Positions 7,101 to 59,200 of a DNA stretch of 64,000 nt are shown piece by piece. Under the pieces are notes generated by a model, which ran no database searches, was not told the DNA's origin, and saw only the letters and a list, made by a program, of their open reading frames with translations. The stretch covers positions 60,004,962-60,068,961 of the forward strand of contig OX031062.1 of assembly GCA_943736015.1 (NCBI GenBank), read 5' to 3'. The position numbers and the translations under genes are program-made. How positions within the stretch are numbered: the stretch's first letter is position 1; each line of letters begins with the position of its first letter. This DNA comes from Tridacna crocea. Lineage: Eukaryota > Mollusca > Bivalvia > Cardiida > Cardiidae.

Positions 7101-8749
7101 TTAACTCAACCACACGACAATATTTTAGGCTTGTCCAAATTAAAAGCATTTGCAGACGACAATAAAAGTGACTAAAAATTTGAAATTTGTTTTGTAAATG
7201 GTAGAAAACATTGTGGGAAAAGAAGAAAATGCTGGTTACCAGAATACCAGCATTTTTTCCTTTTCCCACAAGGTTTTCTATAGGCTTCTTTCTCAGGGTC
7301 GTCAAAAGTAGGGATTGAGTGGTAATGGGTTAACTCTGGTCCAGAGGAGAAATTTTAGGCTGGGGCAAACTGAAATTATCTGTAGACGACACACTCACTG
7401 TGGCTAATCTATAGACAACACACTAACTGTGTCTAATCTATAGACAACACGCTCACTGTGGCTAATCTGTAGACAACACACTCACTGTGGCTAATCTGTA
7501 GACAACACACTCACTGTGGCTAAAATGATGCAAATTGTCCTTTTACTCTTTACCATACAATCCCAACTTTTACTGACATGAAGTGAAAACATAGAGGGAA
7601 AAAGACAAAATGCTGGTAACCAGCATTTTCTACTTTTACCAAATGATTTCTACCCTTATAAAAATTGAAGTCATCGCTTGAGCCCAAATGAATCTGTAAA
7701 GGCTTTCAATTTGCACCAATCAAATATTTTGTTACTTGGCAAAGAGTTAAAGACTAGCAAATATTGTAGACAAAGCAGAAAACACTGGCAACCAGCATCT
7801 ACTCCTTTTCCCCTAATGCTTTCTAAGGCCTTTTGGCACAGGGTTGTTTGGGTTAATGGGTTAAAATCTTTTACCACTGGACAAGATATGAGATGTGTCC
7901 ACATTGAAAACAGTTGTCCACAATAGAGAGAGTACGGCTCAAATAAATGAATGTGTCCGTGGAATGGCAGAAAATAGGGTGCAAAAAGGAAAAAAAAATC
8001 CTTTCCTTTCCCCACCACATTCTCCAAGGGCGGTAACTACAATGATTGCAATGATTACTATAATAATGATTGTTTAACCCTTTCCCAAACGACAAATTAT
8101 GGACTCTTCCAAACTGAAAGAGTTTGCAGACGACAATTTCAGATTTTGAGAAAATGGCAGAAAGTTCTCATAAAGGGTAGAAAACACTGTGGGAAAAGGA
8201 GAAATTGCTCGTTACGAGCAATTTCTCCTTTTCCCACAGTGTTTTCAGAAGACTTTTACTGCAGACATGTAAAAACCAGGGCTTGTTTGGGAAAGGGTTA
8301 ACTCTTTAAAACACAATTCCAACATTTAATGACCCAGGGAAAGAAGCCTATAGAAAATTTGTGGGAAAAGGAGAAAATGCTGGTAACCAGCATTTTCTCC
8401 TTTTCCCACAATATTTTCAACCCTATCAAACCCAGAAATCATCATACTACCGAAATTTTTAATTTTTCGCCTGCAGATGCTTTGAATTTGGTCCAGTCCA
8501 AAAGTCCATTGTTTGGTAAAGAGTTAACTCTTTACCAAAGACAAAATTCTAGACTTGTCTCAATTAAAAGCATTTGTAGACGACAGAATAAACATGACTC
8601 AAAAATTGAAATTGACTTCAGCAGAGTAGAAAACATTGTTGCAAAAGGAGAAAATGCCGGTAACCAGCATTTTTCTTTTTCCTACAATGTTTTCAGAAGG
8701 CTTCTTTCTCTGGGTCTTAAAAACCAGGGATTGTTTGGTAAAGAGTTCA
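7101..8749. mobile_element. Chain of eight TTAA MITEs end to end
   Basis: Units: 7101-7333, 7330-7545, 7542-7750, 7747-7864, 7861-8077, 8074-8301, 8298-8527, 8524-8749. Neighbours share a TTAA or a one-off variant. 8074-8301 is subfamily C, with centre GCTCGTTACGAGC and arms ending GGAGAAATTGC. The others are common type, and 7747-8077 is badly worn. Confidence 0.82.
7378..7522. repeat. 29-bp minisatellite, five units, inside a MITE
   Basis: The unit TCTGTAGACAACACACTCAC + TGTGGCTAA occurs five times in a row. It matches the MITE left-arm segment GCAGACGACAATTTCAATGTGGCT, so it arose by tandem expansion of element sequence. Confidence 0.88.
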
Positions 8750-9030
8750 TAAAGGGTAAATCTCTAAAAACTTTCATGCTGGTATTCAGAAAATATGTGT
8801 CTATGAGACAGTTCTCACAAGTGCCAACAATACAGGTTTCTTTTACTCTGCAACACAACTCAATACGTGTATACACAACCTACAGTATGTTGTGGATACT
8901 TTACACAGGCTATTAATGCTGTAAAAACTTTCTTTTAGAACATAATTACATAAAATTACTTTGCTAGGACAATTCTATGCAGTATCAACAATACATGATC
9001 TAGACATAAACATACATAATATCATATTAT

Positions 9031-9259
9031 TTTCACCCATTACCACATGATCCCTACTTTCGACGACCCTGAGAAAGAAGCCTTTAGAAAACATTGTGGA
9101 AAAAGGAGAAAATGCTGGTAACCAGCATTTTCTCCTTTTCCCACAATGTTTTCTACCCTTCACAAAACAAATTTTAAATTTTCAGTCACTTTTATTTTTT
9201 CGTCTGCAATTGCTTTCAATTTGGACAAGTTCTAAATATTATCGTTTGGTAAAAGGTAA
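9031..9259 (+). mobile_element. TTAA palindrome MITE, worn ends
   Basis: Complete interior; the ends read TTTCACCCATTACCA and TTGGTAAAAGGTAA, so TTAA is lost on both sides. Confidence 0.8.
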
Positions 9260-9326
9260 TAGAGCAATCACCATAATTATTACCTAGCTTCAAAAATACC
9301 CTATCTTCACTGAACAATCATGAGTT

Positions 9327-9917
9327 TTAACTCTTTCCCAAACAAGCCCTGGTTTTTATCTGTATGCAGTACAAGTCTTTAGAAAACACTGTGGGAAAAG
9401 GAGAAATTGCTCGTAATGAGCAATTTCTCCTTTTCCAGCAGTGTTTTCTAGCCCATCAGAAAACTTTCTGCCATTCTCATCAAATTCAAAATTGTCATCT
9501 GCAAACACTGAGTTTAGGACAGTCTAAAATTTGTCATTTGGGAAAGGGTTAAAGAACCCAGAGAAAAAAGCTCTTGAAAACTTTGTAGGAAAAGGAAAAT
9601 TCCTGGAGACATGAATTTTCTTTTTCCACATTGTTTTATACCCTATCAAAAAATACAATCACTTCACTAAATCTTGACCAAATTAACAAGTTTGTGTTGA
9701 AATCGATTTAACCCATTACCACACAATCCTGTTTAATGACCCTAATAAAAGAAGCCTTTTGAAAGAAAACATTGTGGCAAAAGGAGAAAATGCTTTTTCC
9801 ACAACATTTTCTACCCTTCTCAAATAAAATTTCAATTTTTGATCCACATTTACTTTTTCGCCTGCTAATGCTTTCTATTTGGACAAGTCCAAAATTTTGT
9901 CGTTAGGCAAAGAGTTA
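9327..9917 (+). mobile_element. Chain of three TTAA MITEs
   Basis: 9327-9552 is subfamily C with centre CTCGTAATGAG. 9549-9711 is worn. 9708-9917 is common type with a shortened palindrome. Confidence 0.78.
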
Positions 9918-10034
9918 ATATCTCCAAAGGTATGAATGATGCATACTTTGAAAATGTTAACTCTGCTTTCAATATTTTAGCTTAGCCTTTATCAAGAAAT
10001 CAAACACCAAATTTGGTTATCTCTTGATAAAATT

Positions 10035-10238
10035 TTAACCCTATACCAGACAACAAAAATTTAGTCCTGTCCAAACTGAAAACATTTGCAGACGACAATT
10101 TCAATGTAGCTCAAATAGTGTTACTGTTTATTGATAGGGTAAAATACTAGTTACCAGCATTTCCTCCTTTTGCCACAATGTTTTTGAAAGGCCTCTTTAC
10201 AAGGGTCATCGAAAGTTGTCATTGTGTGGGAAAGGGTA
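10035..10238 (-). mobile_element. TTAA MITE with left palindrome arm deleted
   Basis: The flanks are intact but the sequence jumps from GATAGGGTAAAATA to CTAGTTACCAGC, removing most of one arm. Confidence 0.75.
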
Positions 10239-10698: not shown

Positions 10699-10743
10699 TC
10701 AGAGACAACGAGAAAGGAGAGAAATTATTCATGTGTCTGTGCA

Positions 10744-12535: not shown

Positions 12536-13186
12536 CTATACTTTTCCGTTGGGCAATTCTGTAGTTTGTGCGTTCTTTTCAGGTACAAATCTTCCATATA
12601 AATATGTTGCTAATATAACTAAGGAAGCACCTATACAAAACTGCACAGATAAAATAAAGTTCAACCAAATTATAGATACCACACAAGAAATGATAATTGA
12701 TGCCGACGTTGCAAACCCTTTCAAAATGTTATCTGCATATTTTACAACTAGCGCTACTATCAGTCCACCACATGACTGTAAAATTATCACAAACCACACC
12801 CAAGTATCATATCCGTAAAAAAATCCCTTTTCCCAGACTTCATTTCCTTCTGTTATTTCCATGGTAACCAGACCAACTATTGCCCCAATAGCACCAAGCT
12901 GAACATTACGTAACCACACTGACTGTTTAGTTCCTTTTAGGATTTTTTCAAAATAAACACCAGCGAATCCTGACATGGCACAAGCAGTCACAACAGCCGT
13001 GAGGCCTATAAATGGATTCTGACCGGTGGAAACTTTGGCTTTGCCGATGTTTTCTGGCTGTGTCTGTACGATTGATACACCAGCAAACAGGACTAATAAA
13101 GCAAGCCACTGTATCTTGGATAAATGTTTCTGTAACATGATTACGGACAGTAGGGCCGTTGTGAGGATTTTCAGCTGATACGTCAC
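12536..13186 (-). CDS. SLC35A2: SLC35A2-like exon 4 (helices 4-10, C-terminus, stop)
   Basis: A polypyrimidine tract and CAG end at 13187; 216 codons and TAG (12538-12536) follow. This one exon carries two thirds of the protein: helix 4 (TTALLSVIML), helix 5 (LALLVLFAGVSIVQ), helix 6 with GFAGVYFEKILKG, helix 7 after SVWLRNVQLG, helix 8 (WVWFVIILQSCGGLIVALVV), helix 9 with KYADNILKGFATS and helix 10 (GASLVILATYLYG). The tail (VPEKNAQTTELPNGKV) is short and hydrophilic. It has no dilysine ER signal at the extreme C-terminus, consistent with Golgi residence. No clear polyadenylation signal was found within about 100 bp downstream; a MITE begins there at 12428. Confidence 0.95.
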   Translation of the reverse strand: MTYQLKILTTALLSVIMLQKHLSKIQWLALLVLFAGVSIVQTQPENIGKAKVSTGQNPFIGLTAVVTACAMSGFAGVYFEKILKGTKQSVWLRNVQLGAIGAIVGLVTMEITEGNEVWEKGFFYGYDTWVWFVIILQSCGGLIVALVVKYADNILKGFATSASIIISCVVSIIWLNFILSVQFCIGASLVILATYLYGRFVPEKNAQTTELPNGKV

Positions 13187-16100
13187 CTGAAAAAAAAAAA
13201 GATAAAACATTGGTTCATTTTTCTAGGCCTTCATCTATTAACTCTTTCCCAAACGACTAAATTATGGACTAGTCGAAATTGAAAGCATTTGCAGAAGGCA
13301 ATATAACTGCGAATCAAAAACTGAAATTTGATTTAGAAAGGGTAGAAAACATTGCGGGAAAAGGAGAAAATGCTGGTTACCAGCATTTTTGCCTTTTCCC
13401 ACAATGTTTTCAAAGGCTTTCCTTCTTAAGGTCGTCAAAAGTCGGGATTGTGTGGTAAAGGGCTAATCTCAACACTTCCTAATGAAAAGGGCCTCTGAAA
13501 CACTGACTCAAAAAATGAAACTCAAATATATACGAATTGTAGAAAACATTGTGGGAAAAAGAGAACAAGCTGGTTACCGTTTTCTACAATGTTTGCTACC
13601 CTTTCAAAAACAAATTTCAATTTTTCAGTTGCCTTAATTTTGTCATCTGCTAAGGCTTTCAATTTGGAACAGTCTAACATTTTGCCATTTGGTAAACGAT
13701 TAAACCATATGCAGATGACATTTAAGTCACAATCTCGACTTTTAACGACCCAAAAGAAAAGAAGTCTTTGGAAAACACTGTGGGAAAAGGATTAAATGCT
13801 GGTAATCAGCATTTTCTCCTTTTCCCTCAGTGTTTCCACTCTATCAAAGAGAGAAATCATCATTTCATCAATGTTTAATTTGTCGTCTGCAAATGCTTTC
13901 AATTGGTTACATCCCAAATTTGTAGTTTGGTAAAGGGTTAATAGGGCTCAAATGATGAAAATTGTCTCTGGAAGGGTTGAAATATTGGTAACCATCATTT
14001 TCTCCTTGTCTCACAATGTTTTCAAAATCTGCCTTCCTATAGGTTCTCAAGACACAGGTTTGTATGGTAAAGGTTTAACTCTACCACACAATCCTGAGTT
14101 TTGACAACTCTACAGATAAAGCCATTTGAAAATACTGAGGGAAAAGGAGAAAATGCTGGCTACCAGCATTTTCTCCTATTCTCACAAAGTTTTCTTCCCA
14201 ATCAAAAACTAAATCCAACCATTTGGAGTTGGACACAGCTAATTTTTCATCTGCATATCCTTTCAAATTTGAGTCTAAAATTTTGTCGTGTGGTACATTC
14301 GAGATCAGACTGCACATTCTGTGCAGATTGATCTAGATATAGTCTGCCCAAAATGCCGCTGGTGTTGTCTATAGTATGGAAAAAGTTAACCCATTACCAC
14401 ACAATCCCTTTTGACGACCCTGAGAAAGAAGCCCTTTGAAAACATTGTGGGAAAAGGAGAAAATGCTGGTTACCAGCATTTTCTCCTTTTCCCACCATGT
14501 TTTCTACCCTTAACAAAACAAATTTTCAGTCTGCGAATACTTTCGATTTGGACAAACCTAAAATTTTGTCGTCTGGTAACGAGTTTGCAAACAATTCTAT
14601 GTTTTTACAATCTTTAGGGAGGACGTCTTTTGAAACAATGTGGGAAAATGAGAAAAATCCTAATAATATGGGTAATCTCTGATATCCAGTATAGTATTCT
14701 TTTCCCACAATATTTCATACTTTTTGAAAGACTAGTCCAATCATTTTGATGCAATATTTTGTTGTTTCTTTGCAACTGCTTTCAATTCAGGCAAGTTTAA
14801 AATCTTGTCATTTGAGTAAGAGTAACTGCATATTGATATGCAAATTATTCAAACCAGCGTGTGATTTCTGGGTTTTAAATATAAACACCCATTTTGAATT
14901 TCAAAAGTCTTTCAACTTAAGGGATTTCACACCCTGTAGTTTGCAGTAGATATTAGACCTTTATCCCATAATGCAAAGTTGAATCGATCCCGAGGAAAGC
15001 AGGTTTTGAAAACATTTGAAAAGAGGAGCAAATACTAGTAACATGAATTTTCTCTTTTCCCCAGAATGTTTTCTTGATTTAAAGTAACTTCAATCATTTT
15101 GTTGCCTGCAAAATGCTTTCATTTGGACAGGTCAAATATTTTGTCTTCTGGTACAGATGTTAGCCCTTTAACCCTTTCCCAAACGACAAAGTTTGGACAC
15201 TTCAAACCGAAAGAGTTTGAAGACGACAATTTTAGATTTTGAGAAAATGGCAGAAAATTCTCAAAGAGGGTAAAAAACACTGTGGGAAAAGGAGAAATTG
15301 CTCGTTAAGAGCAATTTCTCCTTTTCCCACTTTGTTTTCAAAAGACTTTCACTGCAGGCATGTAAAAACCAGGGCTTGTTTAGGAAAGGGTTAACAAACA
15401 ATCTCGACAAACTTTTGGACTAAACCAAATTGAAAGCATTTGCAGACGACAATTCAACTCTTGCTGAAAAGATGATTTCTGTCTATGATAGGATAGAAAA
15501 CATTGAGGGAAAAGGAGAATATGCTGGTTACCAGCATTTTCTCCTTTTCCCACAATGTTTTCAAAAGGCTACTATTCCTAACCTGTAAGAACCAGGGATT
15601 GTTTGGGAAAGGTTTAAATTACCACACAGTCCCTACTTTTGACGACCGTGAGAAAGAAGCCTTTAGAAATACATTGTGGGAAAAGGAGAAAATGCTGGTA
15701 ACCAGCAGTTTCTCCTTTTTTCCCCACAATGCTTTTCCCCCAAGTCACAGACAAATTCCATTAATTGGGCAAAGTTTGAAAAGGTGTGTGTCACTGTGTT
15801 GATATATTTTCGATTCGGACCAGGGAACAGTTTTATAGTCTGGTAAAGAGTAAAGATAGAAAGTATCAAAAACTGCATTCACGTTCAATAACAATGAGTT
15901 GAACTTGTATATCCCTGAAATAAATACAAGAGGATCATGGTTATTGTACATAAAAACCATCGATCACCTGAGCTAAAATTGAAGAAAAATCTGATTGCAC
16001 TTTAACTCTTTACCAAACGACAAATTTTTGGACTGGTCGAAATTGAAAGCATTAGCAGATGACAAAATTAAAGTGACTCAAAATTGAAATTTGTTTTGGG

Positions 16101-19100
16101 ACGGGAAGAAAACATTGTGGGAAAAGGAGAAAATGCTGGTTACCAGCATTTTCTCCTTTTCCCACAGTGTTTTCTAATGCTTTCCTTCTCAAGATCGATA
16201 AAAGTCGGGATTGTGTGGTAAAGAGTTAGACATTTGACACAAGGAAGTTAATGTGAACAGCCTAATTACAGACTGTCAGGTTGTCTACCTTTTCAATGCC
16301 ATGGTGGAAAAGAAGCACATTTCTTAACCCTTAGACTGCAAAGCATGACTCACTGACCTTTTGCGGACAGTGTAGATCAAGATCAGACTGCACAGAACGT
16401 GCAGTCTGATCTTTGATCTACACCGTCCGATAAAGAGATATTAATCCTCAAAACGTAACTTGAAATAACAGTATTATAATCCCTACTTTTGATGCCCCTG
16501 AGAAAGAAACCTTTTGAAAACACTATGGGAAAAGGAGAAAATGCTGGTAACCAGCATTTTCTCCTTTTCCCATAGTGTTTTCTACCCTTCCTAGAACAAA
16601 TTTATTTTTTTTAGTTACCTTTATTTTGTTGTCTGCAAATGCTTTCAATTTGGACCAGTCTAAAATTTTCTCGTGTGGTAAAGAGTTAATATCGAATTGA
16701 AAATTAAATTTTAGTTCATTAGCAGGATAAGGGTTAATTGCATAGATCAAGATCAGATTGAAGAGAATATGCAGTCTTGTCTTTGATCTATACTGCCTAT
16801 CTGTTTAGTCAAGCCTTTAGAATAATTATCTTTCCAAGCTACAGAAATGGCAATCTTGAACAATTTGATAGCATCAGCAGAAGGTAAATCAAATACATGC
16901 ATTGCTCAAGCAATGGTATTTGTATGTTTCGAAAAAAATTGTGGTAAAATACGAAAATGTTGGCTACAAGCATTTCCTCCTTTCCCGAAGGGTCTCCTCC
17001 TAAGGATCTTCAAGACCTCAGGATTATGATGTCAAGGGTTAAAAATTAATAAGAGGGTCATGAAAGCCCTGAATTGCTCACCTAAACCTTTGTATCTTTG
17101 AGAAAATAACAATTTCATTCACAAGCGAAGTTTGTATATAATATTGAAGTTTAAGGCTGTTTTACCAGCTTAGGTCACATCATGGCGGTCAGTGCATCAT
17201 CAGTGCATTTTCTTCCTGGCTTTCTCACACCAGTACTGACAAAATTTCCTTTCCAAGCCACTGACTGCTTTTCTTGCATGCATCACAGGTGTGAACAGAG
17301 AAGCCATCATGCTGTCCATTTCTTTGAAAGATATTCTAAGTTTTAACAAAATTAACCTCGAAATTGCACGACATGTACTTGCACCGTAACCCTTTACCAC
17401 ACAATCCCAACTTTTAATGACCCTGAGAAGGAAGTCTTTAGAAAATATTGTTGGAAAAGGAGAAAATGCTGGTAACCAGCATTTTCTCCTTTTCCGACAA
17501 TGTTTTCTACTCTTCCCAAAACATGTTTTATTTTCTGAGATATGTTTAACTCATTACCAAACGACAAAATTTTAGACTGGTCCAAATTGAAAGCATTTGC
17601 AGACGACAAAATAAATCTGTATCAAAAATACAAAATCCATTTGGGAAGGGTAGAAAACATGGTAGGAAAAGGAGAAAATGCTGGTTACCAGCATTTTCTC
17701 CTTTTCCCACAATGTTTTCCAAAGCCTTATTTCTCAGGATCGTTAAAAGTCGGGATTTTGCGGTAAAGAGTTAATTTGGTGTCTGCAGATGCTTTCAATT
17801 GGACAAGTCTAAAATTCTGTCGTTTGGTAAAATGTTAGCTCTTTACCACAGAAGCACTTGCAGACTGCCAATCTAATGTAGCTTGAAAGGTGACTTAACT
17901 CTTTACCAAACAACAAAATTTAGACTGGTCCAAATTGAAAACATTTGAAGACGACAAAATAAAAGTGACAGAAAATTTGAAATTTGTTTAGTGAAGGGTA
18001 GAAAACATTGTGGGAAAAGGAGAAAATGCTGACCAGCATTTTCTTCTTTTCCCACAATGTTTTCTAAAGCCTTCTTTTTCAGGGTCATCAAAAAGTAGGG
18101 ATTGTGCGGTAATGAGTTAAGTTGTAGAAAACATTGCTGGAAAACATGAAAGTACTGGTTACTAGTATTTTCTCCTTTGCTCAAAATGTTTGCTAAAGCT
18201 TTCAAAAGAACTGCAATAGTTTACTCTTTTTCAAACGACACAAATTGAGACTTCTACAATGTCTTCAAAAGTTTTCAACACCAGAGTTAAAACCACATGC
18301 TACAAGTTAAAACAGGAATTATTTTCTTTAACACAATGTGACCTAATCTTTGAACAGCTGTACAAGATTAACTGTGTACTAAATTGATCCCAGGGTTTTA
18401 ACAACCCCAAACAAATCTTCCCAAGGCGGCAAATATACACTGAAAGGGCTAGTTAGTGAAACCGCTTAAAATCTAGAAAGCCTGTGTAATGCAGAGCAAT
18501 GACCCTCCCCCACAAAATGATCCATGGGTAATTTCTCTACGTAAACAAATGACACATGGGTCATTTCTCTACATAGAGGAATCACCCGAGTCATTTTTCT
18601 ACTTAAAATAATGACCCGGGTCACTACGTAGAATAATGACCCAGGTCATTCCTCTATGTAGTGAAATGACTTCTGGGGTCATTTCTCTACGTAGAATAAT
18701 GACCTGGGTCATTTTGTAGGGGAGGGTCATTTCCCTGCATTACACCTGCATATACCCATATTCTAAAAGTCACATGCACAACTACATGTACATAGATTCA
18801 TTATGGTAAGTCAGAACTTATTCCAATGAAAACTATAGGAGTTGTACACACAAGAAATTGCTAACGGACAGACAGGTGGTCGCAAGAACAACTTTGAGGA
18901 AAAAACCCTTTGAAACTTTACAGGAAAATGAGAAAATGGTGGAAACCAGCATTTTCTTTTTATCACATTAGGTTTTCTATACTTTTGCAGACAAATACCA
19001 TTACTGCCAGCTTCACTTGATAAAGTTGACTGCAAAACTTTTCAATTTGGACTACTATAAAATTTTGCTGTTTGGTAATGAGATAGGACAGTTGTACTGT

Positions 19101-28100: not shown

Positions 28101-31100
28101 ACTGTGAAGGCATTTTCAGATGAATATCAAATATGTCTACAATATTTTTTGTCGCTAACAGAGTAGGAAACATTCCACGAGCCCTCTCCATCTAGGAACA
28201 TTTGTGTTGTCTAATGAAAGGTTGAGTATTTAATGGCTATCTGTAGTTTTACAAGGACATTTTTACTGCTTTCGTATCGCAAATCTGCCTAATGTATTGA
28301 CGGCAACCAAATACATCATGTGTAACAACACGTGCACTCATTTTTAGTTTTGAATAGCTGGTCTGTAATTTGTTATTGATCACTTTGACTTGAACCATCT
28401 GATTCTGTCATACAGGCATGCACTCCACTCATTCTACTTTCTGTTTCATCTAATACAATCCAAACTCTTTGTGTAGATTTTGTCAATACAGTGTAGATCT
28501 ACACAGTCCTACACATGCAACATTGTTGTCTTCACATGTCATATTCTTCGAAGATTTGACCTGTCTTATATGACATATCACTCTCGCCACTATCCGGGAG
28601 ACTGTACTAGTAAGCGCTATAAAGTAGCAATGGAGAAAATGGCTTTTATCAATATGTTTGAGGAAAAAGTAGGCCTGTTTTAGCTCCAGATTTCTCTATT
28701 TAACCTGCTGATCATAGCTGAGTGTATCGCACTAGGTAGCGTTTTATTGAGTGTACATTTACTGTAGTTTGAAATTCGAAGTAAAGGTTGTCGCTTAGAA
28801 ATGTGGTCCTTTCCTGTATACCCAGGATGCCCAAATTAGATAGATGAGTATTTGTAAAATGCCATCTAGTGAGAGATAATGCATGCAACATACTTTCCTA
28901 AATCTTATACCAGGAGAAAACTACATCAGATTAATGGATCCAATTGCTATTCCTAATTAACTCTTTACCTAAAATAATAGGCTAGCCAGAATAATTAATG
29001 CTTTAGTAACAAGATAATAACCCTTTACCGCATGACAAGATTTTAGACCTGTTGGAATTGAAAGCCTTTGCTGATGACAGTTTCAATGTGGCTCACATGA
29101 AATGATTTTTCTTTGAAAGGGAAGAAAACATTGTGGGAAAAGGAGAAAATGCTGGTTACCAGCATTTTCTCCTTTTCCCACAATGTTTTCAAAAGCTTTT
29201 TCTTTTAGTAGTGTTAAAAGTCGTCATTGTGTGGTAAAGGGTTAAATTAGACTAGCCAGAATTGGAAGCATTTGCAGATGACAAAATTAATAAGACTCGG
29301 AAATTGAAATTTGTTTTGGGAAATTTGTGTGAAATGGAGGAAATGCTGGAAACCAGCATTTTCTCCTTTTCCCACAATGTTTTCAGAAGGCTTCTTTCTC
29401 TGGGTCCTGAGAATCAGAGATTGTTTGGGAACAGGCTAAGTTAGTAATAAAATAATTACTGATCCTGCATGTCTGGCTTAATAGAACAGCTACTTTCCTT
29501 GCCTATGCTAACTTTACTAATTACACATATGTACATGTACAGTATTACATGTAATGGACATTTTATTTTTCGTTCACAGGGCTCTGCACATGAAATTGTG
29601 CTGAAGGAAGACTTGGAAAATTAAACGAGACTTACTAGTAAGTTGAAGTTGGATCTTAATTTGCCAAAGCACAAAATCAGCTTGAGGAGCTCATGTGCCC
29701 ACCTATTTTACCTACCCTTTGTGAAAATTGGATAAATGAAAATAAATACATGGTAACACAATTTTTTAAAAGTGTTAAGGTCAATTTCTTATGTTTAATG
29801 GGTGTTATTAAAATACATGTATACCGTTAATAAATTCAGTGTATAAAGTGTGAATTGATTCCCTGGGAAAAAAAAGTTCAAATCACAAGTTGAAAATTTA
29901 TTCCCTGGATACAACATACATCTCTTGCAAGAGTATACATCATGGTGACCATGTACTTTGGAGAATTGAAATCCAATTTCAACTTACAGCTAATACTGTC
30001 CCACAAATCTGCTATTTCAGGACTTTGAGTACTTGTTGGCTTCAAATTTGTTTCAGAAGGCAGATGATCCATTACAAAAATAAACAGTAAAAAGTGCACT
30101 TTTTTAAAGGTTTATCCTGTACTTCCCAAACCATAAAAATTCATATCAACATGATATTTTGAACTAAAGAATCAACTTCCAGTGATTTTGATTTGAAAAT
30201 ATGAATACTTCTTCAATAAACCCCATGACTGTTATAGGTAATGAGTACCCACAACACAGGATTTGGAAGAGAAATAACGGATTTAGAATACCATCACTCC
30301 CTTTTATCTGGAGCTCTGAACTTCAGAGGAAATGAAATGGGTGGGTGGAGGGGGCGGACCCAATTTCAAATGGTCATTATTTGATAATATCTTTAAAAAT
30401 GATCAATTTGTGTATATTACAATTAATACATCAACATTTTACGACTTTTTTCATTTAACCCCTTACCACATAATCCCTACTTTTGATGACCCTGAGAAAG
30501 AAGCCTTTAGAAAACATTGTGGGAAAAGAAAATAATGCTGTTAACCAGCATTTTCTCCTTTTCCCAAAATGTTTTCTACCCTTCATAAAACAAATTTCAA
30601 ATTTTCAGTCACTTTCATTTCCTTGTCAGCAAATGCTTCCAATATTGATCTATAAATTTGTTGTTTGATAATGAGTTAAAGCTGTGTACATTGTACATTG
30701 CATACAATTTGCCATTGAAAGTGGAATTGCTCATGTTGTATCACGTTGAAGCAGAGAAGGGGGAAGGACTCCAAGGATTTGCTTGATGTGTTAGATTTTT
30801 TAAACAACACCCGATAAAAACGTTATTGACGAGCAAACAAATTTTTTACCCTGCTTCAAACCAAATTCCAATCGATCATGTATTAACGGAATTATTGAAG
30901 ATTTTCTTACCAGAAGTGGGGAAATTTCTTCAAATGTCGGGTCATTCTTTTTGTTGTTGTGTCACGTGATTCCCCGCCGTGTTGTATATTAATTTGGACT
31001 GTAAAATGTCTGTAAGCCCTTTACCAAACATTCCTGATCTTTAAGACCCAGATGAAGAAGCCTTCAAAAACATTGTAGGTAAAGAAGAAAATGCTGGTAA

Positions 31101-43100: not shown

Positions 43101-46100
43101 TCAATATTGGTTTTTTTTTTTAAATTGACTGCTACAAATTCGTCTCTAGATGACAAAAATTTCAGTTACAAGGCCACTTTCTTTCTTGTATTGAAATTTT
43201 GCATAATGCTGTCATTACAATGGGTTTCTCCTTGTTTGGAAATTAGGTCACCCATGGTTCACAGCAGATAAGATTCTTTTGTAAAAGTTAAATCATCACT
43301 TGAGGTTTAACTCTTTATCAAATGAAAAAATTTTGGTCTGGTCTAGACTGAATGTGGTGTTGCTGGTAATCAAGGCATTGCATTCCTTCTTTATATATAT
43401 ATATACAGGGGAACTTTTTTTTACATATTTTATATAATTTTATTAAAGAATGTCAAATTCCTGTGATCAGATTGATCCTCAATTTAACGGTATAACAAAT
43501 CCCATTATTTGTGGCACATCCAACTTTTTGTCAGCAAATGCTTTGAATTTGGATGAGTCTAACATTGAGTCACCTGGTATAAAGTGAAAGTAAAGTCTTG
43601 TCTAACCTGATGTAAAATTTTTGTCATTTTATCTAAAGAGCCTCTAGATAAGAATGAATATGTTAAAACTGAACCCTCTACTGGATCATCCCGAGTTTTA
43701 ACCACACTAATACAGACAAAGACTGCCAAAGTTTTGTTGGAAAAGGAGAAAATGCAGTAACCAGCACTTTTTCCTTTTCGAACAATGTTTTCTACCCTTT
43801 CCAAAACAAATTTTGATTTTTTTGACCACCTTTATTATGCCGTCTGCAAATGCTTTCAATTTGGACAAGTTTGAAATTTCGTGGTTTGGTAACGAGTCAA
43901 ACAATTCTCTCATACAGCCTTTTATTCAATTTCAAGCCAAGTAAACCCCTATCACAAACAGTCACATACATATTATAAGAACACTAAAGAACTAGGCTTT
44001 CAAAAATAATGAAAGAAGAGAAAAAGCTGATGACCAGCAATGTTTTTTTCTCCTTCTGCCACAAGGTTTTCTGTCTTTTCAAGGACAGTCCTCAATCAAT
44101 TTGTTATCTGCAAATAGTTTCATTCTGGAAACGAGTCATAAATCTTATCCTTCGGTGAAGAATTAATGTTTTACCAAACATTATCCCAGGTTTTTACAAC
44201 TCTGAGATAGGCAACCAGTTTTTTCTCTTTTTCTAGTATTTTCTCCTTTTCCAATAACATTTTTTACCCTACTGGAAAAAAAAATTTTTTTTGAGTTACT
44301 TTGTCTTCTGCAAGTGTTTTCTATTTGGACTGCTCTAAAATTTTGTTGTTTGCGGTATTAACTTAACTCTTTATAACACAACAAAATGAGAGACTGGTAG
44401 AAATTGGAAGCATTTGCAGACGACAAAATAAAAGTGACTGAAATTTTGAAATTTGTTTTGTGAAGGGTAGCAAACATTGTGGGAAAAGGAGAAAATGCTG
44501 GTGACCAGCATTTTCTCCTTTTCCCACAATGTTTTCTGTCCCATTCTTTCTCAGGGTCGTCGAAAGTAGGGATTGTGTGGTAATGGGTTAATCCATTTGA
44601 TGATGCTCTCTGGATCTAGAATTGAGGGCTTTGAATACTAGTACTAACCAAACACCGAAATTTTAGACTTGTCTGAATTGCAAGCATTTGCAGACCACAA
44701 AATAAATAGACCACAAAAAATGTAATTCATGTTGGGAAGGTTAGAAAACATTGCGGAAAATGAGAAAATATTGGTTATCAGCAATTTCTCTTTTTTTTTG
44801 CCCAACAATGTTTTCAAAAGTCCAATTCTCAGGTTTGTTACTAGTCCAAATTGTTTCCCAGACAACTCTTCATCAGACAACAAAATTTTAAACAAGGCCA
44901 TTTTAGATACAGGAGAAGAGAATAAATCAAATTAATTGAATTAATTAAGCAATGGAATTTATAATAATTTCAGAAAACAAAACATTGTGGTTGAAATTAG
45001 AGTCACTACATTTTCTGGGAAGCAATGATATATACCCTGGCTGCCTGGATATAATTGAAGTACTCATGAAAATGGTGTTAACTTCCTTTCCACGAAAAAT
45101 TCTATACCTAGGGTTTTCACTAGATATGGTACAGTGGTTCTGCCCCCCTTCAAACGGGAAAAAAAAGCAAACAGGATTATTAAAACATTAAAACTGCGGA
45201 TTGTGTGGTAAAGGCGTTGTCTGGGAATGTCATATTCTTTGGAAATTTGACTGTTCGGCTATGATGCATCACCTAGTCCCCACCCATACCTGGGAAAAGT
45301 AACGCTTATACCAAAGCTATTTGCCTATTTACCAAAGCATGTACGGGCTGTTTTAACACATTACCACACGAGAAAATTTTGGACTGGTCCAAATTTAAAG
45401 CATTTGCAGATGACAAAATAAAGGTGACTGAAAAATAGAAATTTGTTCCGGAAAGGGTAGAAAACACTGTGGGAAAAGGAGAAAATGCTGGTAACCAGCA
45501 TTTTCTCCTTTTCCCACAGTGTTTTCAAAAGGTTTCTTTCTCAGGGGCGTCAAAAGTAGGGATTGAGTGGTAATGGGTTAACCCATTTAGACAATCCCTA
45601 CTTTTGATGCCCCTGAGAAAGAAACCTTTTGAAAACACTATGGGAAAAGGAGAAAATGCTGGTAACCAGCATTTTCTCCTTTTCCCAGTGTTTTCTACCC
45701 TTCCCAGAACAAATTTCTATTTTTTAGTCACCTTCATTTTGTTGTCTGCAAATGCTTTCAATTTGGACCTGTCTAAAATTTTCTTGTGTGGTAAAGAGTT
45801 AACCCTTTACTGAACCACAAAATTTGGGATGTGACCAAATTCAAAGCATTTGCAGAAGACAAATTAAACATTGATGAAATGATGATTTCTGTCTTTGAAA
45901 GAGTAGAAAACATTGAGGGAAAAGGAGAAAATGCTGATTACCAGCATTTTCTCCTTTTCCCACAGTGTTTTCCATTAGACTTCTTCTTTAGGATCGTTAA
46001 AAGTCGGGATTGTGTGGTAAATAGCCAATGCAAAGGTTACATGCTAGCCAATCATAGCTGAATGAATCACACTAAGACTAGCATTTTAGTGAGTCAACAT

Positions 46101-49100: not shown

Positions 49101-52100
49101 ATGCTGCTTACACAGCATTTTCTCCTTTTCCCACAATGTTTTATACCCTTCCCAAAACAAATTTCAATTTTTGAGCCATATTTATTTTGTCATCTGCAAG
49201 TGCTTTCAATTTGGACAAGTCTACAGTTTTGTCACTTGGTAAAGAGTTAACTTCTACCAAAAAATGGCAAAATTTTAGACTTGTCAATATAAAAACCATT
49301 TTGAAGATGACACTCTAAATATAACTTAAATATCTAACTAATTACCAAACGACAAATTTATAGACTGGTCCAAATTGAAAGCATTTGCAGACGACAAAAT
49401 AAATGTTACCAAAAAATTGAAATTTGATTTGGAAAGGGTAGAAAACATTGTGGGAAAAGGAGAAAATGCTGGTTACCAGCATTTTCTCCTTTTCCCACAA
49501 TGTTTTCAGAAGGTTTTTTTCTTAGGGTCGTTAAAAGTCGGGATTGTGTGGTAAAGCGTTATAGTGGGGGGTGGGGGAAGAAAAAGAGATTATCCTTGAC
49601 AGGATAGAAAACGTTGTAGGTTAAAATGGCAACCAGCATTTTCTTTTTTCTCAATGATGTTTTCAGAAGTTTTCTTCATCAAGGTCACCAACACTTGGGA
49701 TAGTTTATTAACCCTTTACCACACAATGACAACTTTTGATGACCCTGAGGTAGAAGCCTTTTGAAAACATTGTGGGAAAAGGAGAAAATTTCAGTAACCA
49801 GCAGTTTCTCCTTTTCCAACAATGTTTTCTACCCTTCCCAATCACATTCCGATCCTTCCCCTGCAAAAAGTAGTTCTTGAGATGAACAATTCACAGTATA
49901 TGTTTTCAGTTCATGAAGAGTTCATGAACTATCCAAGAACTGGTAAAAAAATTTTTGAACTGTCAAGTGGTAGTTCGTGGACTGGTGGTTCATGTGAACC
50001 CCATATTCATGACCTATTACTAACAGTTCATGAATTAGACACTGATATCAGTTCATGAACTGATTGTTCTTGAACAATTCATGAAGTTGCTGTCTTTAAG
50101 AAGTTCAAGGAAGAATTCAATAACTTAACTCTTTACCACATAAGAAAATTTTAGACTGGTCCAAACTGAAAGCATTTGCAGACGACAAAATAAAGGTGAC
50201 TAAAAACAGAAATTTGTTCTGGGAAGGGTAGAAAACACTGTGGGAAAAGGAGAAAATGCTGGTTACCAGCATTTTCTCCTTTTCCCACGGTGTTTTCAAA
50301 AGGCTTCTTTCTCAGGGGCGTCAAAAGTAGGGATTGTGTGGTAATGGGTTAAATATTTAAGGTAGTACCATAATATTATCCTGAAAAAGTTGCTACGTTT
50401 GAAAATGATTATTATCGTACTACTTTGATCATTCTTAGAAGGAAAAAATTGGAAAAAGTTCCACAAACTTTTTCCATTTTTTCCTTCTAAGAATTTTTTA
50501 TAAATCTAGGCCACTCTATTTTCATTACAAAAGGACACAATAATTACCTCCCTTTTCTGAAAAAATAACAAAATATTGACAAATAATTTCAAGCTGGACA
50601 TCAGATGAATTTCTGGTCGGTTAGAAATGTGCAAAAATATTGTAACAGTATAAATCCTTATTTATCAACTTAAAGGAAATTTAATTCCATGTTGCACTAG
50701 AAGTAATTAGATGGTAATACCTTAAACCCACTTTCAGTCATAAAATTTGCAGATATTTATCTATCACATTCTTTAACACTATACAGTTATGTCATGGGTG
50801 CAAGTGCAAATACCCATGTTTCCTGTCATTTTCTCACCAGCACAACACTAATTTCCTTCTAAGCTACTTGCTGCTGCAACCTAACTGAATAAAGGTAACT
50901 GAATGAAGGCTATATGATCCAAGATTTTCTAACATTATAGGAAAATGTCTGAGACACCACAACAGGTTCATGAATTTTGATTCAGAAAAGGTTCAATTAT
51001 AGTTTAGTTTAAACATATTTATTTTACATCGATTGAGAAACAAGTTCTTACAACTTATACTAATCTCTCTGGATTCTGCTTCCTGGAAACTACACCAGTA
51101 CTCGCGCCGAAAGTGTGGGGGCCAATGAAAAATCCCAAAGCTGACACCCGCTCCCGGGTATCGAACTCAGGACCTTTAGGTTATGAGGCCGACGCTCTAC
51201 CTCACGACCACGGACACCACTTATAGTTCAAGACTTACTTCATTAAACTGTTCATGGAACTGTTTATGAGCGGTTATTCATAAACAGTTCATCAACTGTT
51301 CATGAACAGTTCATAGAACCAAAACAAAGGTTCACAAACAAAAATGGTTCATGAACTGGTAATTTGCTGGTCAATGGATTGTTCATGAACTGTAGTTCAG
51401 GAACTGTTCATGAACTCAAGAACTACTTTTAGCAGGAGTTCAGTCACATTTATTATATCGTCTGCAAATTCTTTCGATTTGGACCAGTCGATAAATTGTT
51501 TGGTAAAAAGTTAAAATAATAGTTATCAAATAATCCTCTTAGTCATCTGTAAATGTGGATTTCGACAGGTATTACTCTCAGATGATAATTTAAACCTTTG
51601 TTGACATACACAACACAACAAAACAAACACATAAAAGGTAAGGCAGGTAAAATACATCGCTTCATTACAAAGACAATACAGCGGGTATTTAACCCTTTAC
51701 CCAATAAGGCATTTCTATTGCATCTCTAATTGACCATAAATAAGAGCAAGGATAAAGCCGTATATGACACCTTTTGGTTGTGTAGAAAACATTGTGGCAA
51801 AAGGTGAAATTGCTCGTCACGTGCAATTTCACCTTTTGCCACAATGTTTTCCAAAGGCTCCTACAAGCAATGCGTAGAAATGAGTATCTATGGAGTAAAG
51901 GGTTAAGCTGAAAGGAATACCTGTTTCCACTATAATTATGAAGTCAGTCGACCCTAAAAAGACACTGCTATCGTCTGAGAGTAATACGCATGTTTCTTGT
52001 CTGATAAAGGAGTAAAGTAGAATCAACACTGCTATAATAAAAAGAATCAGCTTTTACATCCTTGTGTTATATATCCTACAAAACATCATACAAAAATATC

Positions 52101-55100
52101 ATAACTGCATTAACTCTTTACCAATTAAAAACAAAATTGTAAACTGGTCCAAATTGAAACCATTTGCAGACGACAAAATAAACATGACTGAAAAATTGAA
52201 ATTTGGTTTGGAAAGGGTAGAAAATATTGTAGGAAAAGGAGAAAATGCTGGTAACAGCATTTTCTCCTTTTCCCACAATGTTTTCAAAAGGCTTCTTACT
52301 TAGGGTCGTTAAAAGCCGGGATTGTGTGGAAAAGTGCTATCTCATTACCAGATGGCAAAATTTTAGACTTGTCCAAATTGAAAGCATTTGCAGACGACAA
52401 AATAAAAGTGACTGAATATTTGAAATTAGTTTTGTGACGGGTAGAAATCATTGTGGGAAAAGGAGAAAATGCTGGTTACCAAAATGCTTCTTACTTAGGG
52501 TCAATAAAAGCCAGGATTGTGTGGTAAAGTGTTAAATAATGCATTGACATGCATGGCAAACAGATTGGGGAAGAAGATCAAAGCGCTCAGAGCTCCAAAT
52601 TTGTTTAATTGGTATAACAAGTGGTTTATAGGAACTTTTTACATTTAATGAATTTTAATGAAAAACGCTGAAAATCATCAGTGATTCTTTTTTATTTGCA
52701 AGCATTTCCCATGCCATTTTCGGTGACCAGTCCCTTTCTCCTTCTCTCACAATGTATACTACCCTTTACAAAAAATTATATATAACAGACTTCTGTTTTT
52801 CTTTTTGGTCTGCAAAAGTAAGGTCTTCAATAATTTGAAGGGTGAAAAAATTTTGCTTTTAAAAAAGATTTAAAACTCTTTTGAATGGAAACAGATTCCC
52901 TTTCGGCAAACTGAGGATTTACAAAATAAGTCCACGGCACATGACAAGATTCTTCCATTTCCACAGAAAATAAAGATATGATGTCAAAAATATGGACAAA
53001 TGAGGATACAAATATCTGACTGGGTAGAAAACATTGTGGGGAAAGGAGAAATTGCTCGTTACGAGCAATTTCTCCTTTTCCCACAAGGTTTTCAAAAGCT
53101 GTCTGTTGTTGATACGTCAAAATGAGTATCTATGGAGTAAAGGGTTAACCAGCACTTGAAAGTTACCCAAGGTAGTGAGATAGTAAATCAATCTCTGTTG
53201 AACAAATATTGACAGATTTACAGCAGCTTTGTACAATCTATTTGATTGAGAGCTCTCTGTACCAAAGAACCTAGACTGGTATTAGTCCCTTAAATAGAGC
53301 ATTTTCATTAAAACAAAATCATCATGTAAAACTGCAAAACAAATACCGGTACTCTGAGTTCTCAATGTTCTGACTGTCCGATTTAAACCCCAATACAACC
53401 AACCTAAATACCAAATATCGAGGTTCAAGGCCAAATGATAATGAAACAAGAGCAGCCAATTGTCGCAAGATATGCCCGTCTCAGTTGCCAATTTGACTTG
53501 AGACTTCAAAGTTCCGTTTCAGACAAGCAAGAAATATAGTACTGTGAAAATGAAGATCAAAGTGGAATTAATCAAAATCTGTGCTAGGTAGAGTTATTGT
53601 TCTTGTGCACTGTACTTGGTAATATTGCAACAAACATGCATACCAAGTTTGAAGTCGTTCTGACTTGAGATGACAGCTATATTCACAGCAAGCACTATAT
53701 GCTATGAACATGACATTCCAAGGGAAATAACTCAAAGACATTATGAGGTAAAGGTACAGTTCTTGTGCACTTCACTTCAAAATATTGCAACAAATAAGCA
53801 CACCAAATTTCAAGTCATTCCTACTGAAGATGACAAAGTTTTGGTCTGGGCAAGCAAGAAATGCTATAAAAATGAAGGTCAAACGGGGATTAACTCAAAA
53901 TTCATGCAATTAAGAGCTATGGTTCTAGTGCACTGCACTCCATAATTTTTCAGCAATCATACATATCAAATTTGAGGATATTCAGCCTGGAGATGACAAG
54001 GTTATACTCCAGACGAGCAGAAAACGCTGTAAAAATGATGATCAAAGGAAAATAACTTATAGACAGTACAAGGTAGTTATGGTGCTTTCACACTGCACTT
54101 TGCATTATTGCAAAAACACAAATGCCAAGTTTAAAGTCATTAGGACTGGAAATGACAAAGTTATGCTCCGGAAAAAGAACTATTCTATAGAACTTTCTAA
54201 TTCAAGGGCAAATAACTCCAGATTACATCAATAATGGAACTCATCTGAGATCTTATAGTCATATATATCTTGACCAAGTTTGGTGCTGATTGGTTGATAT
54301 TTGTAGATACTAGAGCGTCTAGAATGTAAACAAAGTCAAATATTGCATTTTTTCTAATTCAAGGGTTAATAACTCCAGTTGTTCTGGTCCAATTCTACCC
54401 GTAATCAAACTTTATTTTGTCATCTGCAAATGCTTTCAATTTGGACCAGTCTAAAATATTGTCGTTTGGAAATGGGTTAAACTTATTGTACATTCTACAC
54501 CCTCCACATCAGCTTATGAAGGCAGACAGAATGCTTTGATCATGTCATCAAGTATGAATTTTTTAGACACAAGACTGTGACAAGAGTCAGTCAAATTTCA
54601 TTGGACATCACTTATACAATAAAATAACATTTCACACCTTTTGCCTACAAAACTTTTAACCATTTATCAAACAATCATGCCTAGCTGTTATATTAACACC
54701 AGGGAGGAGGCCTTCAGTGCATATAGACAGGGAAAAGAAGAAAATGTTAGTAACCAGCACTTTCTCCTTTCCCCAAAATGTTTTCAGCTCTTTCAAACGA
54801 TATCGTTCTTGCCATATGCGTACTTAACCCATTACCACACAATCCCTACTTTTGACGACCCTGAGAAAGAAGTATGTAGAAAACATTGTGGGAAAAGGAG
54901 AAAATGCTGGTAACCAGCATTTTCTCCTTTTCCCACAATGTTTTCTACCCTACCCAGAAAAAAATTTTGAATTTTCTGTCACTTTTATTTTGTTGTCTGC
55001 AAATGCTTTTGACTTGGACAAACCTAAAATTTTGTCGTTTGGTAATGAGTAACTTTGTCATCTGCAAATGCTTTACTCTTTCCCAGATGACAAAATTTTA

Positions 55101-56210
55101 GACACATCCAAACTAAAAGCAACTGACAAATCATTCCTTTTACCACATGATCTCACATTTAAACAACTGTTGTAAAGAAAACATTGAACTAGTTAGGCAT
55201 ATGGGTAGGTGGGTGGGCAGGTGGGTGGGTGGGTAGGTTGGTAGGTAGGTAGGTTGGTGTGTGGGTGGGTGGGTAGGTGGCTGGATGGGTAGGAAAAAGG
55301 GTGGGTGGGTGTTTGGGTAGGTAGGTAGGTAGGCTGGTGGGTGGGTGGGTAGGTAGGTAGATAGGTAGGTGGATGGATAGGCTTGTAGGTGGATAGGTGG
55401 GCAGGTTGGTGGGTGGATAGATAGATAGGTAGGTAGGTGGGTGGATAGATAGGTAGGTAGGTGGGTGGATAGGTGGGTAAGTAGGTGGGTGAGTAGGTAG
55501 GTAGGTGGATAGGTAGGTAGGTGGGTGGGTGGGAGGGTGGGTGTGTGGGTAGGTAGGTAGGTGGGTGTGTGGGTAGGTAAGATGTCAATAGGTAGGTGTG
55601 TGGCTGGGTAGGTAGGTAGGTGGGTAGGTAGGTAGGTAGGTATGTGGATAGGTGGATATTTGGGTAGGTAGGTGAGTGGGTGGATGGGTGGGTAGGTTGG
55701 TAGGTAGGTTTGTAGGAGGGTAGTTGGGAAGGTGGGTGGGTAGGTGGGAAGGTGGGTGGGTAGGTAGGTAGATAAGTAGGTAGGTAGGTAGGTAGGTGGA
55801 TAGGTGGATGGGTAGGTGGGTGGATAGGTATGTTGGTATGTAGGTGGATAGGTGGGTAAGTAGATGGGTGAGTAGGTAGGTAGGTGGATAGGTAGGTAGT
55901 TAGGTAGGAGGGTGGGTGGGTAGGTAGGTGGGTAGGTGGGTGGATTGGTAGGTGGGTGGCTGGGTAGGTGGGTATGTGGGTAGGTAGGTAGGTGGGTGGG
56001 TGGATAGGTAGTTGGGTAGGTGAGTAGGTGGGTAGATAGGTAAATGGGTGGGTGGGTAGGTAGGTGGGAGGTAAGTAGTTAGGAAGGTATGTGGGTGGGT
56101 AGGTCAGAGGGTGGGTGGCTGGGTTGGTAAGTAGGTAGGTAGGTATTTCACTTGCATATAATAATGTATATCATGTTACAAAAAGTTACATTTACAAATC
56201 AGCAATAGTC

Positions 56211-56246
<36 letters not shown>

Positions 56247-59200
56247 CTTATTTATTTATCATAAGGTAATTATAGGAAGATGTAAGTAAAATAGTATTTA
56301 ACCTGAAGGAGTATGCATACTCACTAGTATCATTTTACAACAGAGAATTTATCAAATTATCAGCTAAACTCCAGTAGCTCAGTCGGTAGTGTGCAGGACT
56401 GGATAACAGGGATCATGGGTTCCATCCCTGGCTAGACCATTAATTTTCTTTCAGGGGATATATGATGATCATACCGACAGAATTGATTCCTCACAGGTGA
56501 TCATTGTCTTGAAGATGGTTCTGTGGCAAAGCAGTGGGTAGCTTGTGCAGAGTACTGGTAAAAGAGGCTCCAGGAAAGCATGGATAGGTCCACTGGCTAC
56601 TGTGGTACAACTAATATGGTATTAACTCATTACCACATGAGAAAATTTTGGACTGGTCCAAATTGAAAGCATTTGCAGATGAAAAAATAAAGGTGACTGA
56701 AAAATAGAATTTTTATCTGGAAAGGATAGAAAACACTGTTGGAAAAGGAGAAAATGCTGGTTACCAGCATTTTCTCCTTTTCCAACAGTGTTTTCAAAAG
56801 GCTTCTTTCTCAGGGGCATCAAAAGTAGGGATTGAGTGGTAATTGGTTAAAATACAATAAATCATACATGTATCATCATTTTTCAGTTTTGTTGCAATGG
56901 CAACCAGAGTTTTTGAAGGAATAAAATTTTTCCAGGATTTCTGAAGAGGACCATGGCAGAATCATTTCTCTGAAGTTTCATCAAAATTGGATGGGTAGTT
57001 TCAGAGAAGATGTTTGAAATAAAATTTAACCCATGCGTGCACGGACGGACGGACGGACGCATGACAGACATCAGGCCATAATGTAAGCCCGCTGGCCTTC
57101 GGCCGGTGGAGCTAAAAACTCTTGAGAAAAGACGAAAATGCTAGTTACTCGCAAATTTTTCCTTAACAAAGTTTTCAAAAGACTTCTCTCACAGGGTCAT
57201 CAAAACTTGGTATTATTTGAAAAAGGTTAAATGTTAACATCAAAGCATTTTGTTAAGTAAGTATTCAGACTGTTTTGCATAAATCTGTTAGAGGCTAGAG
57301 ACCAGATGCAAAAGAAGAGAAGAAAAAAAAAGAGTGGAAAGGTGAAAAATGAAGTAAATTGAAATCTGGTTACGGTTCAAGTCCAAAATATAATCAAAGC
57401 TTCCTTATTCTTATGATAATGTGCAGTTACCTACCCAACAAAATGATGAAATCTATCAACTTCAAAAGATCTTTGCTAAAAAATTGGGGATGAAAGTACT
57501 AATATTTGAAAATAATGCATAAAACGTTAACTAATGGAAAAACAATAAGTCTGACACAACAGTCACCTCATTAGTTTTTAACCCTTTACTGCACAATCCA
57601 GACTTTTAACGACCTGAAAGAGAAGCCTTTTGAAAACACTGCATGAAAAGGAGAAAATGCTGGTAACCAGCATTTTCTCCTTTTCCCACAGTGTCTTTTA
57701 CCCCTCCCAAACCAATTTTTAATTTTTCAGTCGCCTTTATTTTGTCATCTGCAAGTGCTTTCAATTTGGACCAGTTTAAAACTTTCTTGTGTGGTAAAGA
57801 GTTAAATCTTTCCAAAACAAATTCTAACTTTTAACAATCAACCAAAAAAAAAAGAACATCATAAATGCTTGTGGAAAGAGAAAGAAATGCTGGTAAACCA
57901 ACTTCAATAAGCCTGAGAGAGAAGCCTTTTGAAAACATTGTTGGGAAAGGAGAAAATGCTGGTAATCAGCATTTTCTCCTTTTCCAACAATGTTTTCTAC
58001 ACTTCCCAAAACAAATTTTAATTTTTCAGTCACATTTACTTTGTCATCTGAAAATGCTTTCCATTTGGACTTTTCTAGAACTTTGTAGTTTGATAAAGAG
58101 TTAAGCAATTTTCCCTTCGGCCACAATGTTTTCAAAAGTCGTCATCTGGAGAATCAAAAAGATGTCATGTTCAAAGGGTATGGTAGTATTCAAAACCTAA
58201 CCAAATAGTTCAGTTTACCCTGAAATGTTTGTGTATAAATGAAGGGGAAAATCAGACTTGATTTCTTTTCTCATTAATCATAGACCAAAAATCTTGACTT
58301 CAATAGATGTTAATGTTCATAATGTCCATTTAACCCTCTACCACACAAGATTTTAGACCTTTCCAAATTGAATGCATTTGCTGATGAAAGTAATGTTTCA
58401 ATGAGGCTCATAGGAAATTGTTGTTCTTTGACAGGGAAGAAATCATTGTGGGAAATGGAGAAAATGATGGTAATCTGCATTTTCTCCTTTTCCCACAGTA
58501 TTTTTAAAAGCATTCTCTTTCTTGGGTACTAAAAGATGTAATTGTGTTGGAAAGGGTTAAGCCTTTACAATACAAAAAAGAGTGTTGACAACCCTGAAGA
58601 CAAAAGCTTATAAAACATTGAGGGAAATAGAGAAAAATGCTGGTAACCTTCATTTTTTCTCTTTTCCTACAATGTAAACCCCAATCAAAAACAGCAACCC
58701 CATCATTATTTGGGCTAAATTTATTTTGTCATCTGCAAAATGCTAATTACATTAGGTCTAGTCTGCTCTGATTTTAAAAATGGCTCATACATGTATTTTG
58801 TCAGGCTATTGAAATAGTTAGCCACTATATGGATAATCTTTGGCAGAACCAAAGTCATACTCGGAATAAAGTCTATTCTTTAACTCTTCACCATACAATC
58901 CCGACTTTTAACGACCCTGAGAAAGAAAGCGTTTGAAAACATTGTGGGAAAAGGAGAAAATGCTGGTAACCAGCATTTTCTCCTTTTCCCACAATGTTTT
59001 CTATCCTTTCGAATGCCAATTTCATTTTTTGATTCATACTTATTTTGTTGTCTGCAAATGCTTTCAATTTGGACAAGTCCAAAATGCTGTAATTTGGTAA
59101 AGAGTTAATCTGCACTTTTCTATGTTTTAAAAAGTACAGACATACTATGTGGTAGCAGCTTTCCTGGTCTTTGATTTGTGCAGCATGAAGAAATTTGATA

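Follow-up and report, generated by a model that had tools for sequence, protein, structure and literature searches.

Copies of a miniature inverted-repeat transposable element (MITE) with a 67-bp palindrome at its centre recur in a 64,000-nucleotide stretch of the Tridacna crocea genome (assembly GCA_943736015.1, contig OX031062.1, positions 60,004,962 to 60,068,961; hereafter the window). The arms of this palindrome lose their symmetry in individual copies after insertion, yet nearly every lineage founder seen carried matching arms, which is most simply explained if only symmetric copies multiply and asymmetric copies do so rarely or not at all. In our judgement it is about an even call that the central palindrome is a cis-acting part of the element whose two-fold symmetry is required, or is almost always present, in the copies that multiply. 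An earlier note on the window had ascribed its mirrored arm changes either to a hairpin needed for spread or to repeated rewriting of one arm from the other; our analysis, which covers one genome and a few hundred copies, partly supports this interpretation, each cause finding its evidence at a different level.

An abundant TTAA-flanked element

The MITE unit runs for about 229 bp from TTAA to TTAA, is without coding capacity, and consists of a left part of 107 bases, the 67-bp core and a right part of 55 bases. The core occupies a fixed place within the element and forms a perfect odd palindrome (33+1+33). Fold-back elements have long inverted repeats that extend to their ends; judged by eye on the consensuses, the two sides of this core do not look like inverted copies of each other beyond short ends. 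This core accounts for 68 of the 75 near-palindromes listed in the window. TTAA stands on both sides of 122 of the 148 copies aligned to both ends, a count that omits copies with unaligned ends and is thus biased toward intact ones. In the family that we call B, TTAA adjoins differing outer flanks in 20 copies, two of which (L076 and L082) lie at one duplicated site. The terminal motif CC[C/T]T follows TTAA, reading CCCT in families B and C and in several clusters of the main family, A; the main A consensus deviates from it, with CTCT on the left and CCCA on the right. The transposons piggyBac and piggyBat target TTAA. The element is a very abundant non-autonomous piggyBac-type MITE with TTAA target sites.

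To gauge abundance in the 1.05-Gb genome (31 contigs), we searched with a refined profile built from window copies and recovered 484 non-redundant copies or fragments in 346,715 bases. These bases comprise the window, 20 loci of 10 kb (11 placed at matches and 9 at round coordinates, so that sampling is partly match-centred), 5 further loci at round coordinates and 8 piggyBac-gene loci. MITEs cover 44% of the window and on average 16% (range 0 to 32%) of 14 arbitrarily placed 10-kb loci at round coordinates. The 130 matches in these 140 kb extrapolate, as an order of magnitude, to a million copies and fragments genome-wide.

Founders of lineages are nearly all symmetric

Arm comparisons used gapless cores only; in the larger set 231 of 484 were gapless, 200 of them with enough flank. 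Six clusters defined by their flanks, of 4 to 113 copies each (148 of the 200 copies; one cluster is B), all have consensus cores that are perfect palindromes. Across five consensuses (three A clusters, B and C), arm differences amount to 0, 3 or 4 paired changes and no one-sided change. B differs from A at arm positions 7, 25 and 30, and C from A at positions 13, 20, 25 and 30, in each case with complementary letters on both arms. The internal flanks of the same five consensuses are 43-76% identical on the left and 44-82% on the right. C retains the core at the same place and length as A, and its left flank is no closer to that of main A (0.43) than shuffled sequence is (0.46). Position 7 must have changed at least twice, or been exchanged, because its C-G state occurs with A and B cores and its T-A state with A and C cores.

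Mirrored positions share sequence context and might therefore mutate alike, so that chance and shared hotspots would produce pairs. Copy age alone does raise the expected number of pairs, from 18.9 to 34.6 in the age-matched set described below, and both arms of the B core have mutations at the CpG sites 30/31. Hotspots can yield neither family consensuses with three or four paired and no one-sided differences, nor inherited paired states beside one-sided states that are not inherited. They are largely contradicted at the founder level and may explain part of the private pairs; as a general explanation we find them highly improbable.

The core is also the more conserved part of the element. 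It differs by 0.05-0.06 per site where the unselected right flank differs by 0.11-0.14, its divergence lies below that of the flanks at every level of relatedness, and the internal region is more conserved between families than the rest of the MITE. Gene conversion or recombination between copies at the palindrome, homogenising cores across families with no selection involved, would account for this lower divergence and for the presence of the position-7 C-G state on both A and B backgrounds. We nevertheless think it unlikely: B and C retain distinct cores, left-left and left-right flank distances are similarly coupled, so that no recombination hotspot at the core is evident, and conversion would spread one-sided variants too, and in the main family those are not shared. 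Shared deletions draw no line between core and flank, and no flank deletion has been amplified. Similarity between the arm and the MITE's own ends is suggestive only (P from 0.005 to 0.41 over six comparisons, uncorrected).

Arms decay largely independently after insertion

Individual copies tell of a different process. In 205 gapless cores we counted 741 one-sided changes (386 left-only and 355 right-only), 100 paired changes and 40 other two-sided changes. Paired changes exceed the 27 expected under independence; 25 of the 100 fall at position 7 and 37 at positions 13, 20, 25 and 30. Among close relatives the pairs nearly disappear. At flank distances below 0.06 (14 copy pairs) there were 35 one-sided, no paired and one other two-sided change, and at 0.06-0.10 (245 copy pairs) there were 744 one-sided, 24 paired (16 at position 7) and 25 other two-sided changes. 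Family B, sampled as 20 copies drawn from the best genome matches to window 8070-8310, showed 15 one-sided and no two-sided changes, and 40 copies of a C-type core carried within another repeat showed 12 one-sided and no paired changes.

The near-absence of paired changes among close copies and in young families indicates that the arms decay largely independently after insertion, and most one-sided changes look like such decay. The large excess of pairs that the earlier note expected within young subfamilies is absent there, and arm differences over all copies are mostly one-sided, the outcome it had named as refuting it. Rewriting of arms in situ was accordingly set aside as the main cause at the founder level.

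Between 51573 and about 52000 in the window, a C-type MITE is nested in a larger repeat; the 39 best genome matches largely share the outer sequence, and by eye the two sides resemble an inverted repeat (TACTCTCAGA/TCTGAGAGTA). We rejected these 39 C-like copies as independent C insertions, as they largely share sequence beyond TTAA; a second repeat family carries the C-type MITE as a passenger.

One-sided arm variants are not inherited in the main family

If unequal arms had no bearing on spread, their variants should be passed on as flank variants are. For each variant we scored excess sharing, that is, whether the three nearest flank relatives of a carrier carry it too, in a sample of 200 copies that was nearly all A, with 6 B and 2 C. 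Flank variants are inherited (369 variants, mean excess 0.081 when the scored column is omitted). Among variants present in 6-20 copies, flank variants had a mean excess of 0.109, with 47 of 199 reaching 0.15 or more, against a mean of -0.004 and a maximum of 0.086 for one-sided arm variants, none of which (0/33) reached 0.15 (Mann-Whitney P = 4e-6). This comparison kept the scored flank column in; the version leaving one column out points the same way. For variants in 3-5 copies the test is powerless, since flank variants are also unclustered there (0.006).

Paired variants behaved otherwise. Six were present in at least three copies, of which those at 7, 25 and 30 scored 0.75-0.86 and those at 5, 9 and 11 about zero. 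At position 7 the C-G pair clusters by flank (0.81 vs 0.125); the single states T-G and C-A do not. In the main family, then, copies with unequal arms leave no detectable daughters. At the founder level these results favour a need for symmetry, the first of the two causes in the earlier note: all six cluster consensuses are palindromic, and three of six paired but none of 33 one-sided variants are inherited.

Signs of occasional template switching

Mirrored changes also arise privately. Exactly two arm sites are changed in 38 A-type copies, and in four of these the two changes form an exact mirror pair, compared with 0.35 expected from site-specific frequencies (P = 4e-4). In an age-matched permutation of 217 A-type copies, paired changes outside position 7 numbered 46 against 34.6 +/- 5.0 expected (P = 0.02), beside 780 one-sided changes. 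The five copies with the position-11 pair have unrelated flanks (mean distance 0.37 vs 0.30 background). Exact 51-mers across the genome showed position 11 changed on both arms 852 times, on the left only 2045 times and on the right only 2589 times. Unchanged 51-mers, of which there were 6 in 140 kb, scale to a very rough 45,000 genome-wide (hand Poisson range about 16,000 to 98,000), and from this rough figure about 118 pairs (54 to 331) would be expected, against the 852 seen.

The centre of the palindrome (model column 141) is T in 166 of 200 copies, A in 24, C in 7 and G in 3. Central A is more than three times commoner than C and is scattered over flank lineages with no clustering (P = 0.21), as if the palindrome flipped about its own axis. 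Template switching at inverted repeats is reported to yield both arm homogenisation and spacer inversion (PMC8604942), and the recurrent mirror pairs and central T>A flips fit occasional switching of this kind, in which one arm is copied from the other within a hairpin. The core is also prone to loss: deletions per column are 2.3 times commoner there than elsewhere (67 vs 57, P = 4e-6), as expected of a hairpin-prone site. Despite this excess, none of the six cluster consensuses lacks the core.

Template switching could in principle be the whole story, with the polymerase homogenising the arms and symmetry a mutational by-product that plays no part in spread. The private mirror pairs in near-perfect copies, the position-11 pairs on unrelated flanks and the unclustered central A all speak for it, as do the outcomes described for inverted repeats (PMC8604942); a shared one-sided change in family C, considered below, would fit jumping asymmetric copies. 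The rate is low, however, with 46 pairs against 34.6 expected beside 780 one-sided changes, and in B none of 15 changed pairs is paired. Moreover, asymmetric copies that jumped freely should pass on one-sided variants like flank variants, and 0 of 33 are passed on. We regard rewriting as the sole cause as doubtful, though of appreciable weight. The second cause in the earlier note thus keeps some support, from the mirror pairs, the age-matched excess and the central flips, as an occasional event.

What might read the symmetry

In the reading that we favour, each inserted copy decays through ordinary one-sided mutations, as seen among close relatives, and unequal-arm copies of the main family leave no detectable daughters, presumably because they fail to spread. 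New lineages carry like changes on both arms, as seen at positions 7, 13, 20, 25 and 30. Judging from the recurrence of mirror pairs and the flips of the central base, both arms probably often change in a single step, through a hairpin template switch that copies one arm from the other.

The likeliest reader of the symmetry would be a dimeric piggyBac-type transposase, because the ends of piggyBac and piggyBat are reported to hold palindromes to which the transposase dimer binds with its two cysteine-rich domains (PMC11707139). The next candidate would be formation of a DNA cruciform itself. Letters are unchanged at 28 of 33 pairs, even as the flanks of family C turned over, which makes a symmetric protein-binding site seem likelier than a hairpin alone. 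A more specific proposal, which we think less likely than not, is that the palindrome acts as a symmetry checkpoint: a dimeric transposase would have to read its two half-sites alike, or the half-sites would have to extrude as a cruciform, which would leave one-sided mutants nearly sterile, and the resulting valley would be crossed when template switching rewrites the second arm in one event.

The core would also fold into a 33-bp RNA stem, and paired changes keep its pairing, so the palindrome might instead be kept as an RNA hairpin, in a structured transcript or small-RNA precursor that aids spread or is used by the host. We consider this improbable. No Rfam family passed gathering thresholds in window 45000-60000, four of the five founder-level pair changes (13, 20, 25 and 30) are A-T/T-A or G-C/C-G swaps with no possible G-U intermediate, and use by the host would not account for conservation over copies that otherwise decay.

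Several observations weigh against a need for symmetry. The best candidate for a possible exception is a one-sided lineage in C. The C consensus was assembled by eye from six copies, with a tie at position 12 read as G: a left-only G>A change is present there in three of the six (once in locus L007, at 1626-1856, and twice in L008, at the different sites 4695-4924 and 8233-8370). Two of these three are the sole C copies in the inheritance test and are mutual nearest relatives. Given the 3:3 tie, the founder of C, or of a C branch, may have been asymmetric at one pair. C also has a right-only CpG change at position 36 in two of six copies, and B a left-only CpG change at position 31 in 5 of 20 copies, two of them at one duplicated site; the B change occurs on two flank backgrounds, so recurrence is likely, though not proved. 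Founder-level changes touch five arm positions only, which makes sequence conservation and symmetry hard to separate, and core-deleted copies are too few to show that they fail to amplify. The lower core mutation in the B and C sets (Mantel-Haenszel odds ratio 0.33) was not used, because those matches were ranked by similarity to a palindromic query. Finally, of 118 matches to DDE_Tnp_1_7, the piggyBac-type transposase domain, fragments included, we read eight loci, and no transposase element with the ends TTAACYCTTTACCA was found in these eight; in the three where both ends were found, the end sequences were others (TTAACCCTTTATATAC).

Autonomous elements L026-L028 were rejected as the partner of the MITE on account of their ends. 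Their terminal 300 bp contain no palindrome with an arm score of at least 7, although a 12-bp TTACACGTGTAA can be seen in them. Some piggyBac-type matches have long open frames and identical scores at several places, which suggests recent activity of other piggyBac families.

Copies and other features of the window

The earlier note had taken six palindromes in the window to define subfamilies. Its mirrored letters are present in all six, and five are perfect 33+1+33 palindromes. The A-type copy at 49335..49562 (plus strand; palindrome 49441-49507) has the reference core state. The A-type copy at 45353..45584 (plus; palindrome 45460-45526) carries the paired change at position 7, T-A to C-G, with central base A, and those at 16477..16689 (minus; palindrome 16516-16582) and 56622..56851 (plus; palindrome 56729-56795) carry paired changes at 7 and 9 and at 7 and 11, respectively. 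The imperfect one is the A-type copy at 57903..58104 (minus; palindrome 57931-57997), with a paired change at 11 (TTGTTGG/CCAACAA) and two one-sided mismatches. The B-family copy at 8074..8304 (plus; palindrome 8180-8246) has paired changes at 7, 25 and 30 and no one-sided change. As markers of subfamilies, the position-7 variant (ATT/AAT to ACT/AGT) and the B core follow flank lineages; in this sample the variants at 9 (16516) and 11 (56729 and 57931) do not.

Family C is represented at 51689..51906 (plus; palindrome 51785-51851), in the copy nested in the larger repeat, with paired changes at 13, 20, 25 and 30 and a one-sided change at 29, and by a second palindrome at 1439..1505 (plus) with one one-sided change, at 6. 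Further perfect A-type palindromes lie at 29124..29190 (plus) and, with no strand assigned, at 58935..59001.

Long palindromes also form where two such MITEs abut over a shared or nearly shared TTAA (window 26460-26579 and 60454-60572; L010 around 9803; L018 around 734). Near-perfect palindromes unrelated to the core occur at window 18635-18713, 25163-25235, 34533-34586, 37678-37752 and 46633-46747; as several of these recur in L009, L012, L019 and L020, further palindromic families exist. Window 55150-55900 holds a tandem array whose units step by 8 and 12 bases; part of the array reads as a proline/threonine-rich open frame. An open frame on the minus strand at 12536-13210 resembles an SLC35-type nucleotide-sugar transporter.

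Relation to known systems and significance

The closest precedent is the coral CMITEs of Acropora, which share TTAA duplication, CCCT-type ends and a piggyBac-like link, and whose families differ less in the internal region than at the ends (PMC2872659). A role of that region in transposition has been proposed by the CMITE authors. Their elements measure about 100 bp, with a 75-base internal region, and are estimated at about 1600 copies (PMC2872659), compared with 229 bp here and an extrapolated number of copies and fragments several hundred times higher. The conserved part here is a perfect palindrome; CMITE sequences are given only in a figure, and the word palindrome is absent from the text that describes them (PMC2872659). 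The piggyBac and piggyBat palindromes are about 14-19 bp, imperfect in piggyBat, and near the ends (PMC11707139), unlike the 67-bp perfect palindrome here, which has 107 bp between it and one end and 55 bp between it and the other.

Homogenisation of inverted repeats by template switching likewise makes arms identical in one event and inverts the spacer; the cases described are from yeast coding genes and RNA genes (PMC8604942, PMC8794818), whereas here the setting is a mobile repeat and symmetry also predicts the success of lineages. A MITE with a described covarying internal palindrome was not found in the open-licence PMC literature. As far as our searches show, three things are new: the palindrome, the rule that founders differ by paired changes, and the failure of one-sided variants to be inherited in the main family.

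The success of MITEs is usually credited to their ends; in this element, about a sixth of the sampled genome, conservation is highest at a symmetric internal site. The copy number of this element makes it a natural mutagenesis experiment, which could show the internal positions that a transposon needs. It could also reveal the rate at which template switching produces compensatory double changes, an old question for palindromes and RNA stems. If the palindrome does act as a symmetry checkpoint, the same mechanism that makes palindromes unstable would also supply the fertile variants.

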